From: Halolamina sediminis
GTDB lineage: Archaea; Halobacteriota; Halobacteria; Halobacteriales; Haloferacaceae
Length of the DNA stretch: 64,000 nucleotides
Assembly: GCF_001282785.1 (NCBI RefSeq)
Contig: NZ_CVUA01000001.1
Location: forward strand, 2,232,001 to 2,296,000
Direction of reading: 5' to 3'
Shown: positions 32,900 through 39,443 of the stretch, piece by piece
Position numbering within the stretch: position 1 is the first letter of the stretch
Layout: each line of letters starts with the position of its first letter
Program-made: the position numbers and the translations under genes
Notes under the pieces: generated by a model
The model's database searches: none
What the model was told of the DNA's origin: nothing
Seen by the model: the letters and a program-made list of their open reading frames with translations, nothing else

Positions 32900-33721
32900 A
32901 TGAACTCGAATTTACTCGGCGACGAAATAGAGGATATCCTGCGGGAGAGCATCGAAGCCGCCGACGGCGAGGTACTGTTCGTCGGTCCCTCGGCGGCGGC
33001 GGTGGAGGCGCTGATCGGACTCGGAACCGAGTTCGACGGCGAGTTCCCGACGGTGAAGCTGCTGGCGGACGAACGCATGCTCAAAGACGTGATGGACGAC
33101 TTCCTCGTCGCCAGTAACGCGGCCGACCTCGTCGAGGCCGGCAGCCTCGAACTCCGGACGCTCGAAGGTGGCGTCGACAACGCGCTGCTCGTGACCGAGG
33201 AGCGAACGATCGCCGTCGTCACTGCCGGCGACGCCGTCGCCGGGCTCTCGACCGACGACGAGTCGTTCGTCGGGCAGGCCTACGAGGACTACAGCGCACG
33301 CTTCGAGGCCGCTGAGGCGTTCAACCTCCGGACGCCCGCCATCTCGCGGGTCCGCGAGACGATGGCCGACGACATCGGCGAGCAGTCCCGCACCGACTTC
33401 GACGCGGTGCTCGACTCGCTGGAGACCGCCCGGGGCGACGGCGACGGGCTCGACGAGGTGACCATCTCGCTGCTGGTCGCCGCCAAGAACGACGTGCTGC
33501 TGTACGACATCAGCAAGTGGGGCGAGGACGTGGGGATCGCCTCGAAGGCGACGTTCTCCCGGACGAAAACCCGCCTCGAGGAGCTGGGGCTGATCGACAC
33601 CGAGAAGGTCCCGATCGACGTGGGGCGCCCCCGACTGCGGCTGAAGCTGGGCGACGAGCGGCTCCACGACGCCGACGCCGCGGAGATCGCGAGCGTCGCG
33701 CAGTCGATGATCGCCAGCTAA
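32900..33721 (+). CDS. tbsP: TbsP-like transcriptional regulator (DUF5821)
   Basis: 273 residues. It begins MNSNLLGDEIEDILRES with VLFVGPSAAAVEAL and VTEERTIAVVTAGD, recalling haloarchaeal TbsP/DUF5821 proteins. TbsP of Haloferax acts with TrmB in gluconeogenic gene control. The C-terminal winged-helix part is YDISKWGEDVGIASKATFSRTKTRLEELGLID, then RPRLRL. An AT-rich box (TTAAATATC, 32866-32874) gives leaderless spacing to the ATG. Assignment rests on overall resemblance; target genes are not visible. Confidence 0.7.
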   Translation: MNSNLLGDEIEDILRESIEAADGEVLFVGPSAAAVEALIGLGTEFDGEFPTVKLLADERMLKDVMDDFLVASNAADLVEAGSLELRTLEGGVDNALLVTEERTIAVVTAGDAVAGLSTDDESFVGQAYEDYSARFEAAEAFNLRTPAISRVRETMADDIGEQSRTDFDAVLDSLETARGDGDGLDEVTISLLVAAKNDVLLYDISKWGEDVGIASKATFSRTKTRLEELGLIDTEKVPIDVGRPRLRLKLGDERLHDADAAEIASVAQSMIAS

Positions 33722-33766
33722 GCCGGCACCCGTTCCTTTTTGCGAGCGGCGCCCCCTCCCCGGGAC

Positions 33767-35473
33767 ATGGATATCGGAATCGTCGGGAGCGGCCCCGCCG
33801 TCGACGCGATCGAGGCGGCGATGGACGATCTCGACGCGCGGGTGATCGAGGCCGGCAGCGACGAGTTCGCCGACGTGGGGCTCTGTTTCGTCGTCGGCGC
33901 CGCCGGCGCGGACGCGTTCGGCACCGCCGCCGACAGTGACGCGCTGGACCGGTGGGTCGCCGTCGAGATCGGCGGCGTCGGCGGCCACGCCGTCGACGCG
34001 GTCGACGCCGCCGTCTCGGCGTTCACGCCCGCCTCGGGCTGCTACCGCTGTCTGGAGCGCCGCGTCGCCGCGACAGCCGAGGGAGACGATCGGTCCGCGC
34101 CCACCAGCGCCGTGCGCTACGCGGGCGCGGTCGCCGGCCGTCGGGCGACGAGGCTGCTGACCGGCGAGGATCTGGGCGGCACGGTCGTCGAGGTCGGCGA
34201 GGCCGACGTGCAACGCCGGTTCCAGCCGGTCCCGTACTGTCGCTGCGCCGGCGGGCGGGACCGCACGCTCTCGCTGTCCTTCCGGGAGACCGACCTCGAC
34301 GACGCCGTCGGTCGGGCCGAGATCGCCGTCGACGACCGCGTCGGCCTCGTCGAGCAGGTGGGCGAACAGGCGTCGTTCCCCCTCCCATACTACCTCGCGT
34401 CGATCGCGGGAACGGAGGGGTTCTCCGACGCGAGCGCCGCGCCCTTCGCCGCCGGTGCGGCTGCGGACTGGAACGAGGCGTACATGAAGGCGCTGGGCGA
34501 GGGACTGGAGCGCTACGCGGCCGGCGTCTACCGCAACGCGGAGTTCCGGCACGCGCCAGCAACAACGCTCGACGACGCCGTGTTCCCGACGCGCTTCGTC
34601 ACGAGCGACGGCTACGACCCGGACCCCGACGCCGAGCGCCCGTGGCTGCCGGGGTTGGATCTCGTCGAGGAGTCGGGCGTCTGGCTCCCCGCCGAGATCG
34701 TCCAGTACCCCCCGCCCGAGCGGCGGATCAAGCCGCCAATCACCACCGGGCTCGGCCTCGGGAGCTCGACCGTCGAGGCGGTGATCTCGGGGCTCTCGGA
34801 GGTGATCGAACGCGACGCGACGATGCTCGCGTGGTACTCCGACTACGAGCCGCTGGGGCTGGCCGTCGACGACGAGCGCGTCCGCGAACTCGAGAAGCGT
34901 GCTCGTGCCGAGGCGCTCTCGGTCTCGGTCACGCTGCTCACGCAGGACGTCGACGTGCCGGTCGTCGCCGCGACAGTCCACCGCGACGGGGAGTGGCCGC
35001 GGTTCGCCGCCGGCTCCGGGGCGGCACTCGATCCCGTCGACGCCGCGACCGGCGCGCTCGCGGAGGCGCTCCAGAACTGGATCGAACTCCGGGACATGGG
35101 GCCCGAACAGGCGGGCGAGGAGGGCGGCGCCATCGGCGAGTACGCCGACTTCCCCGACCGCGCTCGCGAGCTCACACACCCCGAGACGACTGTGCCGGCC
35201 GACTCGGTCGCCGACGAGGCTGCGGAGCTCTCGGGCGAAGCAGCACTCGACGCCCTCGTCGAGCGCGTCGACGACGCCGGGCTCACGCCGTACGCTGCCC
35301 GGACGACGACCCGCGACGTGGCCGCGCTGGGGTTCGAGGGTGTTCGCGTCGTGATCCCCGAGGCACAGCCGCTGTTCACCGGCGAGCCGTTCTTCGGCGA
35401 CCGGCTGGGGCGCGTGGCGGCGTCGATGGGGTACGAGGCGCGGCCGGAGCGGGCGTATCACCCGTTCCCGTGA
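33767..35473 (+). CDS. YcaO-domain protein with N-terminal Cys-pair domain
   Basis: 568 residues. The N-terminal 230 residues resemble the reduced E1/ThiF-like partner domain of TOMM cyclodehydratases, with a Cys tetrad (C92, C95 in SGCYRCLE; C158, C160 in PYCRC) likely binding zinc. The YcaO domain follows: WNEAYMKALGEGLERYA, GLGLGSSTVEAVISGLSEVIERDA (ATP site) and ALAEALQNWIE. YcaO enzymes use ATP to activate peptide amides for azoline or thioamide formation. The protein ends ERAYHPFP, reminiscent of the Pro-rich C-terminus of cyclodehydratases. No precursor peptide or dehydrogenase is nearby, so substrate is unknown. Confidence 0.8.
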   Translation: MDIGIVGSGPAVDAIEAAMDDLDARVIEAGSDEFADVGLCFVVGAAGADAFGTAADSDALDRWVAVEIGGVGGHAVDAVDAAVSAFTPASGCYRCLERRVAATAEGDDRSAPTSAVRYAGAVAGRRATRLLTGEDLGGTVVEVGEADVQRRFQPVPYCRCAGGRDRTLSLSFRETDLDDAVGRAEIAVDDRVGLVEQVGEQASFPLPYYLASIAGTEGFSDASAAPFAAGAAADWNEAYMKALGEGLERYAAGVYRNAEFRHAPATTLDDAVFPTRFVTSDGYDPDPDAERPWLPGLDLVEESGVWLPAEIVQYPPPERRIKPPITTGLGLGSSTVEAVISGLSEVIERDATMLAWYSDYEPLGLAVDDERVRELEKRARAEALSVSVTLLTQDVDVPVVAATVHRDGEWPRFAAGSGAALDPVDAATGALAEALQNWIELRDMGPEQAGEEGGAIGEYADFPDRARELTHPETTVPADSVADEAAELSGEAALDALVERVDDAGLTPYAARTTTRDVAALGFEGVRVVIPEAQPLFTGEPFFGDRLGRVAASMGYEARPERAYHPFP

Positions 35474-35797: not shown

Positions 35798-36817
35798 CTA
35801 TAGCAGTACGTCCTTTACGTCGGCCTCACCCGCCCGCCGGACCACCGCACGAACGGGCTCCTCCGCGCCGGCGAGGTTGTCCGAGTCGCCGTCGAGCGTG
35901 AGCAGTTTCGCGGGTCTGCCTTCCTCGATCAGGCCGTACTCCTTCCCCGCCAGCTCGGCGCCGTTTTTCGTCGCCATCCGGAGCACCTCGGTCGCGCTCA
36001 CGTCGGCCAGCTTGGCGGCGAACTCCATCTCGCGGAACATCGACGGCGAGTTCAGCATCACGTTGTCCGTCCCGAGCGCGACGGTCGTCCGCTCGACCAG
36101 TTCGCGGATCGGGGCGACGCCGACGTTCGTGACGAGGTTCGAACGCGGGCAGACCACCACCGGTAGCTCCTCGCGTTCGATGCGGTCGAAATGCTCGTCT
36201 CCGGGGTGGACAACGTGGACCAGGAACGCGGGATCGAGATCCATCGCGGGTGTGAGATCGTGGGGGTCGCGCTCGCCGGCGTGGATCGCGAACGGCTTGC
36301 CCGCCGCCCGGCAGGCCTTCCGGAGGTCACCGAACTCGCTGTCACGGGCGCCGCTGGCGCCGAACCCGTCGGCGGCCCGCATCGCGTCGGCGCTCTCACG
36401 GCCGAAGATCACGGGGTCGATCTCGCGGTCGGCCAGCGCGTCGCGGATCGCCTCGACGCCCTCGACGCCGCCCTCGCGGAACTCCAGGAACGCCGCGGTG
36501 CCGGAGTCCTCCATGAACCGGAGGCTCCGAGCCATCGCGTCGACTTTCTCTTCGCGGCTGGCCTGCCGGAGGAGGCGGTGTTTGAGTCCGTCCGGCGGCG
36601 CGACCAGCTCGTCCAGCGAGAGGCCGCCGCCGGCCTCCTTCGCGATCGAGTCGCCGATGTGGGTGTGTGCGTTGACGAACGCCGGGAGCACGATGTCGGT
36701 CGAGTCGGTCCGGGCCGCTTCCACCGCCGCAATCTCGCCGTTCTCGACGATCACCCGCCCCTCGATGGGGTCGAACGACTCGCCCCGGAGGATCGTCCCT
36801 TCGAGCGTGGTAGCCAT
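35798..36817 (-). CDS. Amidohydrolase-family protein
   Basis: 339 residues. The metal-binding H-x-H is in FVNAHTHIGDS (H51, H53). AIHAGERDPHDL, HVVHPGDEHF and LGTDNVMLNSP supply later His and Asp ligands, as in cytosine deaminase/ATZ-type amidohydrolases. Substrate unknown; purine or pyrimidine deamination is one possibility. The ATG at 36817 is chosen; a 50-residue upstream extension is Arg/Pro-rich. The 36818-37079 gap holds no gene I can support. Confidence 0.8.
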   Translation of the reverse strand: MATTLEGTILRGESFDPIEGRVIVENGEIAAVEAARTDSTDIVLPAFVNAHTHIGDSIAKEAGGGLSLDELVAPPDGLKHRLLRQASREEKVDAMARSLRFMEDSGTAAFLEFREGGVEGVEAIRDALADREIDPVIFGRESADAMRAADGFGASGARDSEFGDLRKACRAAGKPFAIHAGERDPHDLTPAMDLDPAFLVHVVHPGDEHFDRIEREELPVVVCPRSNLVTNVGVAPIRELVERTTVALGTDNVMLNSPSMFREMEFAAKLADVSATEVLRMATKNGAELAGKEYGLIEEGRPAKLLTLDGDSDNLAGAEEPVRAVVRRAGEADVKDVLL

Positions 36818-37079
36818 ACCGGTGCGTGGATCCCGGGGGGCATGAACGCGACGCCACGCGGTCGTCGACCCGCGGACGGTTCTGGCGAAGGGTAACGGCC
36901 TTCCGCGCTCGGCGGCTACCGTCGAGTGGCCGATGACGACGGCACCGGGCCGAGCCGGACTCGGCATCCGGCGACGACGAGCCCTATGAGTGCCGAGGCC
37001 AGCTTTCTGAGCCCGGATTATCGCGAGGCGGCGGGAGGTCGGGGAGCCGTGTCTGGGACCGCCAAAGAGAGAGTCAGCC

Positions 37080-37859
37080 TCAGACGGGGGCGTTGAGGGC
37101 GCCGAAGAACACCTGCCAGGCGAGCAGTGACTTCGCGACGAGGCTGAGGACGATGTAGGTCTTCTCGCCGAAGAGGTAGTCCTGCCACTTCCAGGTTTCG
37201 CGGTACTGCAGCACCATGTTGATCGCGAACAGGTTGAAGAACACGAACAGGCTGGCGTAGATCAGTAACACGAAGTCCGGCGGCCCGCCGCCGTCGCTCC
37301 CGAGTACGGTGGCCACGATGGTGATGGCGATGACGACCCAGGGGACGAGACCCGCGAAGGAGCCGACGAGGTAGGCCGTCCAGTCGGTTGTCGTCGTGGT
37401 TTGGTTGTGCAGTTCCATCATGAGCCCCATGAGGTTCATCACGGCGACCAGCGAGAACAGCGCCACGAGGGTCCCGAGGTCCCAGACGCCCGCGAGCATC
37501 GCGATGACGACGATCATCACGGACGCGCTGATCGCGTACTCGTACCAGCGGTACGGGTTCATGCCGCGTTTCAGGTACGACACGTAGGAGTTGTACAGCA
37601 CTGTCGCGATGAGGAGATGGGCGAGCGCCGACAGCAGCAGGAACGCGGCGACGAGGTACGACAGTTGGATCGTCGTCCAGGGTTCGAGGACGGGTGTGAG
37701 GCGCTGGGTGCCCGCCTGAAACTCGAGACTGGTGACGGTGATGGTCCACTTGAGCGAGGTGCTCAGGTAGATCATCAGCGCACCCTGGACGAAATGCAGG
37801 ACCGCCATCACGGCGTTGAACTGGCGGAGTCGTCGGTACGGTGTGTCGGATGTGGACAT
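37080..37859 (-). CDS. Heliorhodopsin
   Basis: 259 residues, seven membrane helices. The retinal Schiff-base lysine is in helix 7 (VLSLVAKSLLAWQVF, K243). The counterion glutamate sits in NPYRWYEYAISASVM (E107), and conserved His occurs at H22 (VLHFV) and H81 (LAHLL). These match heliorhodopsins, which have inverted topology and no established transport in most members. A longer frame of 21 residues upstream overlaps the promoter, so the ATG at 37859 is used. No carotenoid gene is adjacent. Role in light sensing is not proven. Confidence 0.92.
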   Translation of the reverse strand: MSTSDTPYRRLRQFNAVMAVLHFVQGALMIYLSTSLKWTITVTSLEFQAGTQRLTPVLEPWTTIQLSYLVAAFLLLSALAHLLIATVLYNSYVSYLKRGMNPYRWYEYAISASVMIVVIAMLAGVWDLGTLVALFSLVAVMNLMGLMMELHNQTTTTTDWTAYLVGSFAGLVPWVVIAITIVATVLGSDGGGPPDFVLLIYASLFVFFNLFAINMVLQYRETWKWQDYLFGEKTYIVLSLVAKSLLAWQVFFGALNAPV

Positions 37860-38153
37860 ACCCCTAATTTGACCCGGGCCGTTATGAGGATATGTGTTCT
37901 GCCAACATTTTGACGACGGCAATATTCAGAACGGGTCCTCGGAGGGCGAGGTGTGCCGAGAGCGCCGGGGCCGAGGCCATCCCGAAGGCGCTGGGCGAGC
38001 GGACCGGGGGGTCGTGGCCACGACACCTCCATCTCCTCGTCCGCGATTGTTGACTCGGACACACCTAACCTATCAATGCGCAGTAAAAAGCAGCGTTTTC
38101 CAGTTGTCGATCGGTTGGCAGCCGCTGCGGACACGCTGGGGACCCGGTTGGGG

Positions 38154-39443
38154 CTATTTAGCGTCGGCGCCATCGGCCGTCGACGGCGCCTCCACTGCGC
38201 GGGCTGTCGCGGTGAATCCGGCGTCGCGGAGCCGTTCGACGAGAGGGGCGCCGATGCCCGAGGCGGGCGTGAGCACGCCGCCGTCCAGCGGCGAGTCGAC
38301 GTCGCCGCGGACGAGACAGACCGCGGACTCGCCGAGCATCCGTGCGGCCGCGCCGTAGCCTGGGTCGAGGTCGGTGCCGAACTCGGCCACGACGCTGAAC
38401 GGGCCGTCCCGGGCCGTCCCACGGCCGAGGACGGACACCGTGAAGTGGCCGTTCTCGATCTGTTCGGTGCTCGGCCCCTCGCCCGGATCCGGGAACAGAA
38501 ACCGCTGGACGGCGCGCCGCGCCGGACCCACGGACATCGCCGCCGTAAACAGCCCCAGACCGCCGGCGAGAAGCGTCGCACCCGCCGCGCCGCGCAGCCC
38601 GGAGCCGGTGGCGACGACCTCCGTACAGCGGAACTCCCGCCCCCAGGGGTAGCCCAGTAGGGCGTTACTGCGTCGGACCACGCGTTCGTTCACCTGCGCC
38701 ATCGGCGACGGCGCAGTCCAGACCGACCGGATCGAGTCGTGCCGTGGTAAGCGGGCGCCGCCGAGATCGACGCCGTCGCGCTCGCCGGCCGGCGCCAGCG
38801 AGTAGGGGTTCCGGAGCGTCTCCCGAGCCAGCGGATCGTTCGCCGCCGCCTCGAACACCGCGGCCATGCTCGCCAGGGTGCCGCCACTCACACCGCCGCT
38901 GGCGTCGTCGACTGAGATGCGGACCGTCTCACACGGCGCGTCGAACGCCTCGAGCGCGTAGGACTGTGCGAGCAGGGTGCCGCTGTCTGCGGGCACGGAG
39001 TCGAACCCACAGCTATGGACGATCCGCGTCTCGGCGTCGACCGCCGCCTCGTGGTAGCGGTCGATCATCTCACGGATCCAGTTCACTTCGCCAGTCAGGT
39101 CGCAGTAGTCGGTTCCGGCTTCGACGCATGCCGCGACCAGAGGCGTGCCGTATCGCGTGTACGGCCCGACGGTCGTACAGACGACGCGGGTGCGCCGGGC
39201 GATCGCTTGGAGGCTCGCTGGCTCCGTCGCGTCGCCGACGACCGTCGGGACGTCGTCCCACGCCTCGCTCCCGTCGGCGAGGTCGGCCGCGACCGACGCC
39301 AGCCGGTCGGGATTCCGCCCGCCGAGCGCCAGCGAGAGCGTCTCCGGCGTGTACTGCTCCGTGAGATACTCGGCCGTCAAGCGACCGGCGAACCCAGTCG
39401 CTCCCCACACGACGAGATCGTACTGTCGGGAATCAGCTGCCAT
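38154..39443 (-). CDS. Saccharopine dehydrogenase-like / trans-acting enoyl reductase-like protein
   Basis: 429 residues. The Rossmann strand (DLVVWGATGFAGRLTAEYL) binds NAD(P). VCTTVGPYTRYGTPLVAACVEAGTDYCDLTGE and HSCGFDSVPADSG are family hallmarks of the saccharopine dehydrogenase-like group that includes mycobacterial trans-acting enoyl reductases. In haloarchaea it could reduce isoprenoid or lipid chains, which is inference. The 37860-38153 gap between this gene and heliorhodopsin has only promoter-like sequence. Confidence 0.82.
   Translation of the reverse strand: MAADSRQYDLVVWGATGFAGRLTAEYLTEQYTPETLSLALGGRNPDRLASVAADLADGSEAWDDVPTVVGDATEPASLQAIARRTRVVCTTVGPYTRYGTPLVAACVEAGTDYCDLTGEVNWIREMIDRYHEAAVDAETRIVHSCGFDSVPADSGTLLAQSYALEAFDAPCETVRISVDDASGGVSGGTLASMAAVFEAAANDPLARETLRNPYSLAPAGERDGVDLGGARLPRHDSIRSVWTAPSPMAQVNERVVRRSNALLGYPWGREFRCTEVVATGSGLRGAAGATLLAGGLGLFTAAMSVGPARRAVQRFLFPDPGEGPSTEQIENGHFTVSVLGRGTARDGPFSVVAEFGTDLDPGYGAAARMLGESAVCLVRGDVDSPLDGGVLTPASGIGAPLVERLRDAGFTATARAVEAPSTADGADAK

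Follow-up and report, generated by a model that had tools for sequence, protein, structure and literature searches.

A heliorhodopsin gene in Halolamina sediminis and its genomic address beside the guide sRNA sR-tMet

The window (the whole stretch of 64,000 nucleotides analysed here) carries a complete and intact heliorhodopsin gene of the ordinary archaeal kind (Table 1). Both the protein family and the host class are known, and as a haloarchaeal heliorhodopsin the gene adds one sequence to a partly characterised branch. The new element is its genomic address, which is found repeatedly 3' of sR-tMet, a C/D-box guide sRNA. Taken as a whole, the best explanation, which we consider probable, is an intact green-light heliorhodopsin that would be transcribed alone and would regulate a partner encoded elsewhere.

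Table 1. Features of the window around the heliorhodopsin gene (window numbering)
Feature	Position	Strand	Basis
YcaO cyclodehydratase gene, SagD-like TOMM family	33740-35473	plus	237 bits
Amidohydrolase gene	35798-36817	minus	Pfam
C/D-box guide sRNA sR-tMet	36928-37000	plus	Rfam RF02163, 71.9 bits against a gathering threshold of 50, model positions 1-72 of 72
Heliorhodopsin gene (259 aa)	37080-37859	minus	ATG at 37859, stop codon ending at 37080; translation and family matches
Promoter-like element CATATCCTCATAACGG	37879-37894	minus	20-35 nt upstream of the heliorhodopsin ATG; alignment of upstream regions
Saccharopine-dehydrogenase-type NADP-binding protein (reductase) gene	38154-39443	minus	Pfam

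Family identity and key residues

The preliminary description of a heliorhodopsin in a haloarchaeon is borne out by the Pfam, NCBIfam and PDB matches as well as by the placement in the tree. The protein matches the Pfam family Heliorhodopsin (PF18761) with 325 bits and E = 3.1e-97 over model positions 1-242 of 242, and the NCBIfam HeR equivalog NF038020 with 355 bits (cut-off 100; E about 1e-106) over positions 1-244 of 244. All six structures matched in the PDB are heliorhodopsins; TaHeR from Thermoplasmatales archaeon SG8-52-1 is at the top (6is6, E = 1.4e-84), and direct comparison with it gives 55% identity over 251 residues. We regard membership of the heliorhodopsin (type-3 rhodopsin) family, judged from these matches, as virtually certain. 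Bacteriorhodopsin-like type-1 rhodopsins and heliorhodopsins are both seven-helix retinal proteins, which is the only common ground for mistaking the product for a type-1 pump or sensory rhodopsin; we reject this identity as having a negligible chance of being right, because both heliorhodopsin models match over their full length, Bac_rhodopsin (PF01036) does not match at E <= 0.001, the sole PF01036 match of the genome lies away from the heliorhodopsin gene and BLASTP detects no similarity between the two proteins.

The suggested phylogeny was built from 107 proteins and midpoint-rooted, type-1 rhodopsins being left out as unalignable. It places the window protein with archaeal heliorhodopsins beside those of Thermoplasmatota; grouping with type-1 pumps, which would have told against the identification, did not occur, and the type-1 rhodopsin of the same genome is dissimilar. 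Haloarchaeal heliorhodopsins form one clade (support 99/95), with a very long branch for one row (L115), and their sister group is found within the Thermoplasmatota heliorhodopsins, in haloalkaliphilic Thermoplasmata such as Candidatus Haladaptatiplasma (99/92). The long-branched row is a very divergent heliorhodopsin (48% identity) from a Haloarculaceae MAG; it may represent a second type in haloarchaea, or its contig may have been mis-binned.

The residues named in the preliminary description are at the positions it gave, E107 in RWYEYAIS, K243 in VAKSLLAWQ, and the two histidines H22 and H81. When the haloarchaeal set is aligned with TaHeR, H22, S77, H81, N101, R104, W105, E107, Y108 and S111 are invariant in 57 of 57 rows, and S239, K243 and W248 in all 56 rows that reach those positions; most of them are also kept in distant archaeal and bacterial heliorhodopsins. 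The two-histidine feature near the Schiff base cavity is present, H22 and H81 being invariant in haloarchaeal and distant rows alike. In helix 3, the family feature of R104 before the glutamate counterion E107, with S111 one turn further on, is also seen. The SxxxK motif of helix 7 (S239-K243) aligns to TaHeR, with K243 as the retinal Schiff base lysine, and E107 aligns with Glu-108, the counterion in the described TaHeR structure (PMC9385722). TaHeR (PDB 6is6 and 7u55) shares with the window protein the Schiff-base lysine, counterion, two histidines, arginine and SxxxK motif; it differs in the stretch between helices 5 and 6, which is shorter by six residues, and in coming from another host lineage. 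By eye, Lys and Arg cluster at the N-terminus as well as in loops B-C and F-G, which are cytoplasmic in TaHeR, and by homology to TaHeR an inverted topology with the N-terminus inside is inferred.

Retinal supply and proposed function

The 2.84 Mb chromosome of the genome contains one type-1 rhodopsin gene (PF01036; G000:C1:31882-32562), which encodes a protein without detectable sequence similarity to the heliorhodopsin. It is followed by a putative lycopene-cyclase-like frame, recognised by eye, and then by a BCD (Blh/Brp) gene at 33643-34524 of the same contig. This region lies about 0.6 Mb from the heliorhodopsin gene if the single contig is circular, and one RPE65-type carotenoid oxygenase is also encoded in the genome. 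The retinal would come from a carotenoid-cleavage enzyme of this genome. Among the haloarchaeal genomes, BCD is found in 30 of 41 heliorhodopsin-bearing and 216 of 353 other genomes, a difference that is not significant (p = 0.17), and a type-1 rhodopsin in 36 of 41 against 247 of 353 (p = 0.016, relatedness being ignored). Neither BCD nor a type-1 rhodopsin was found in five of the sampled haloarchaea that bear a heliorhodopsin. A search for BCD, type-1 rhodopsin and RPE65-type oxygenase found none of them in four of these five, G052, G070, G262 and G267 (loci L061, L042, L069 and L033), whose genomes are 93-99% complete. Such bearers without a known retinal-forming enzyme, which are relatives and not the window genome, raise the question of where their retinal comes from.

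The window heliorhodopsin very probably binds retinal, as its published relatives do. The retinal would sit on K243 with E107 as counterion, and green light would be absorbed at about 535-545 nm, with the slow photocycle expected of the family. The purified heliorhodopsin of Halorhabdus tiamatea (HtHeR), also haloarchaeal, has its absorption maximum at 536 nm (PMC7807009); the comparison with HtHeR was made through five proteins of the group with Halorhabdus salina, which are 66-70% identical to the window's. In this Halorhabdus-type group, unlike in the window, the gene is not near sR-tMet and a family-2 glycosyltransferase is present directly downstream. Light would isomerise the retinal, upon which the Schiff-base proton would move inside an inner hydrogen-bond network with no net ion transport, and the ensuing conformational change would reach a partner protein by way of the cytoplasmic face.

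Judged from relatives, a regulatory output is likely, and a green-light-driven regulator acting on a genomically unlinked partner is the most likely role. Heliorhodopsins have been reported to bind and stimulate glutamine synthetase (PMC9529153) and to modulate an ABC transporter (PMC11109279), and that of Trichococcus flocculiformis (TfHeR) binds and stimulates photolyase, raising its repair activity about 3-fold (PMC9769723). The window protein might likewise help a DNA photolyase whose gene lies at another place in the genome, and the intense sunlight faced by haloarchaea would favour such a role. However, partners differ among other heliorhodopsins and no photolyase is among the families listed for the immediate neighbours, which leaves this more specific proposal unlikely. 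Somewhat less likely still is a light-driven ion transporter, for instance of protons, in place of a sensor. The viral heliorhodopsin V2HeR3 is reported to be a proton transporter (PMC9448325), so that lack of transport is not universal among heliorhodopsins. Rhodopsin pumps are also commonly used by haloarchaea. However, TaHeR and the other prokaryotic heliorhodopsins to which the window protein is close are, to our knowledge, not reported to transport ions, and a bacteriorhodopsin-like type-1 protein is already encoded in the genome.

Transcription and coding neighbours

The flanking genes are those given in the preliminary description, an amidohydrolase and a saccharopine dehydrogenase-like reductase by Pfam. 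Upstream, 294 bp separate the heliorhodopsin gene from its neighbour, and the downstream gap, of 262 bp, contains the sRNA gene on the opposite strand. Alignment of upstream regions reveals that the six closest homologues have all retained CATA...TCAT within the promoter-like element, against a background of divergent flanking sequence. This conserved putative element suggests that the heliorhodopsin gene has its own promoter, and the shared element together with the two gaps makes a monocistronic transcript likely. The heliorhodopsin would be transcribed alone from this promoter, its partner being encoded elsewhere.

The hint that the amidohydrolase or the reductase might be a partner did not hold. 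Such a partnership would take the form of a light-controlled operon through which the heliorhodopsin regulates one of the two, and the shared strand of the three genes, in an arrangement common to the window and Halolamina pelagica, could be read in this way. However, besides the gaps and the intervening opposite-strand sRNA, four Halolamina congeners without a heliorhodopsin (G073, G281, G242 and G090) retain an amidohydrolase that is 93-94% identical, and the reductase is retained, at 77-81%, by two of them (G073 and G281). The place between amidohydrolase and reductase where the heliorhodopsin sits in the window is taken in G073 by another gene, of 336 aa, and in another congener (G191) the heliorhodopsin is on another contig than both. 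Among 48 haloarchaeal loci, the pairing with reductase and amidohydrolase is found only in the window and in Halolamina pelagica, other bearers having different neighbours. We have dropped the operon reading as very improbable, since the neighbours are not conserved and congeners keep the flanking genes without the heliorhodopsin.

Halolamina pelagica has the nearest named relative of the window protein (93% identity), encoded likewise between reductase and amidohydrolase with sR-tMet just past the stop codon; its locus differs by two extra small genes (72 and 125 aa) between reductase and heliorhodopsin. A YcaO cyclodehydratase gene elsewhere in the window (Table 1) is possibly a peptide-modification locus.

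Conserved neighbours, proposed earlier as a check, were looked for in the 48 loci with simple codon-usage gene calls that were then clustered, in which some starts or genes will be misplaced, making this a survey and not an annotation. The coding neighbours vary from genus to genus and no conserved partner emerges. Within six genes on each side, the heliorhodopsin apart, clusters recur in 8 of the 48 loci at most, and the recurrent ones are mostly from a single genus or belong to broad families. Pfam scans of the immediate neighbours (45 upstream, 47 downstream) reveal no common family. The commonest downstream family is glycosyltransferase 2 (6 of 47, five of them from one genus), and the commonest upstream is an Asp/Glu racemase in 4 of 45, all from one genus. 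Histidine kinases with PAS domains stand beside the heliorhodopsin at 3 of 45 upstream and 1 of 47 downstream positions, too few to generalise. At five loci of the genus with Halorhabdus salina (L045, L047, L052, L055 and L056), the family-2 glycosyltransferase gene follows on the same strand after a gap of 53-74 bp, and a genus-specific operon of the two genes is possible there.

The sR-tMet address, distribution and probable exchange

The sR-tMet gene lies 79 bp past the stop codon of the heliorhodopsin gene and is nearly invariant across Halolamina congeners. This sRNA guides Cm34 formation in haloarchaeal tRNA (PMC4033218). It has a match in 41 of 41 heliorhodopsin-bearing genomes, nearly always one in each. 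The starts of the two genes lie within 1 kb of each other in 5, within 10 kb in 11 and within 30 kb in 18 of the 41 genomes, where random placement would give 0.02, 0.25 and 0.75, respectively; these counts are not independent, the genomes being related, and the pattern was found in these data and not predicted beforehand. The 18 linked genomes span 10 of the 19 bearing genera, and in all 18 the heliorhodopsin is on the 3' side of sR-tMet. Its orientation relative to sR-tMet changes only twice on the tree (20 rows), as compared to a mean of 6.9 in 500 shuffles, none of which gave a value as low. We did not meet this linkage in the open-access papers searched, none of which was queried for the linkage as a combined subject.

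The adjacency looks like a retained ancestral address and not like a functional link. Later inversion, relocation, loss and exchange would have altered a single ancestral placement 3' of sR-tMet. Repeated independent insertion at sR-tMet was also considered; with only two orientation changes, inheritance of a single arrangement fits better. Site-specific insertion is a less favoured possibility. tRNA genes as an insertion site are present at 7 of 47 loci, with no consistent position.

A further reading, which we put forward tentatively as somewhat short of an even chance, is that the address is fixed on the sR-tMet 3' side and that the region is a mobile photobiology locus, in which genes for retinal proteins would be gained, lost and exchanged between haloarchaeal families with the sRNA as a stationary anchor. 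As part of this reading, the sR-tMet region of some genera may also hold halorhodopsin, sensory rhodopsin II or the retinal-forming Blh. Type-1 rhodopsins are located within 10 kb of the heliorhodopsin in 5 genomes from 4 genera, against 0.56 expected (L038 in G101, L041 in G042, L046 in G136, L053 in G139 and L057 in G023). By motif, those at L038, L041 and L046 resemble halorhodopsin and those at L053 and L057 sensory rhodopsin II.

The distribution of heliorhodopsin in haloarchaea is patchy, the family being present in 41 of 394 genomes and 19 of 86 genera, with every match above the curated cut-off. Three of the 41 genomes carry interrupted or truncated copies, which is consistent with ongoing loss. 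In one (L068 in G357) the gene has an internal TAG stop, in another (L070 in G041) a DDE transposase gene lies between two pieces of it, which are separated by about 1.1 kb, and the third (G269) has a second, partial copy at G269:C9:18545-18787.

Heliorhodopsins of Haloarchaeobius (L071 and L072) are 88-90% identical to the window's and are nested beside those of Halolamina in the tree, although the genus is of another family. Their neighbours differ from those in the window (an HpcH/HpaI aldolase and DUF429), and the amidohydrolase orthologue is just 67-68% identical. The gap between these identities suggests that the heliorhodopsin was probably exchanged between families, which is the simplest reading of the closeness of the two.

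That the heliorhodopsin recurs beside sR-tMet shows how poorly its coding neighbours indicate its function, while the position itself is a marker by which gain, loss and exchange of the gene can be tracked. Haloarchaea, with many culturable species and feasible gene deletion, are a useful class for the study of heliorhodopsins, and among Halolamina congeners some have the gene and others lack it, a natural contrast from which its role might be found.
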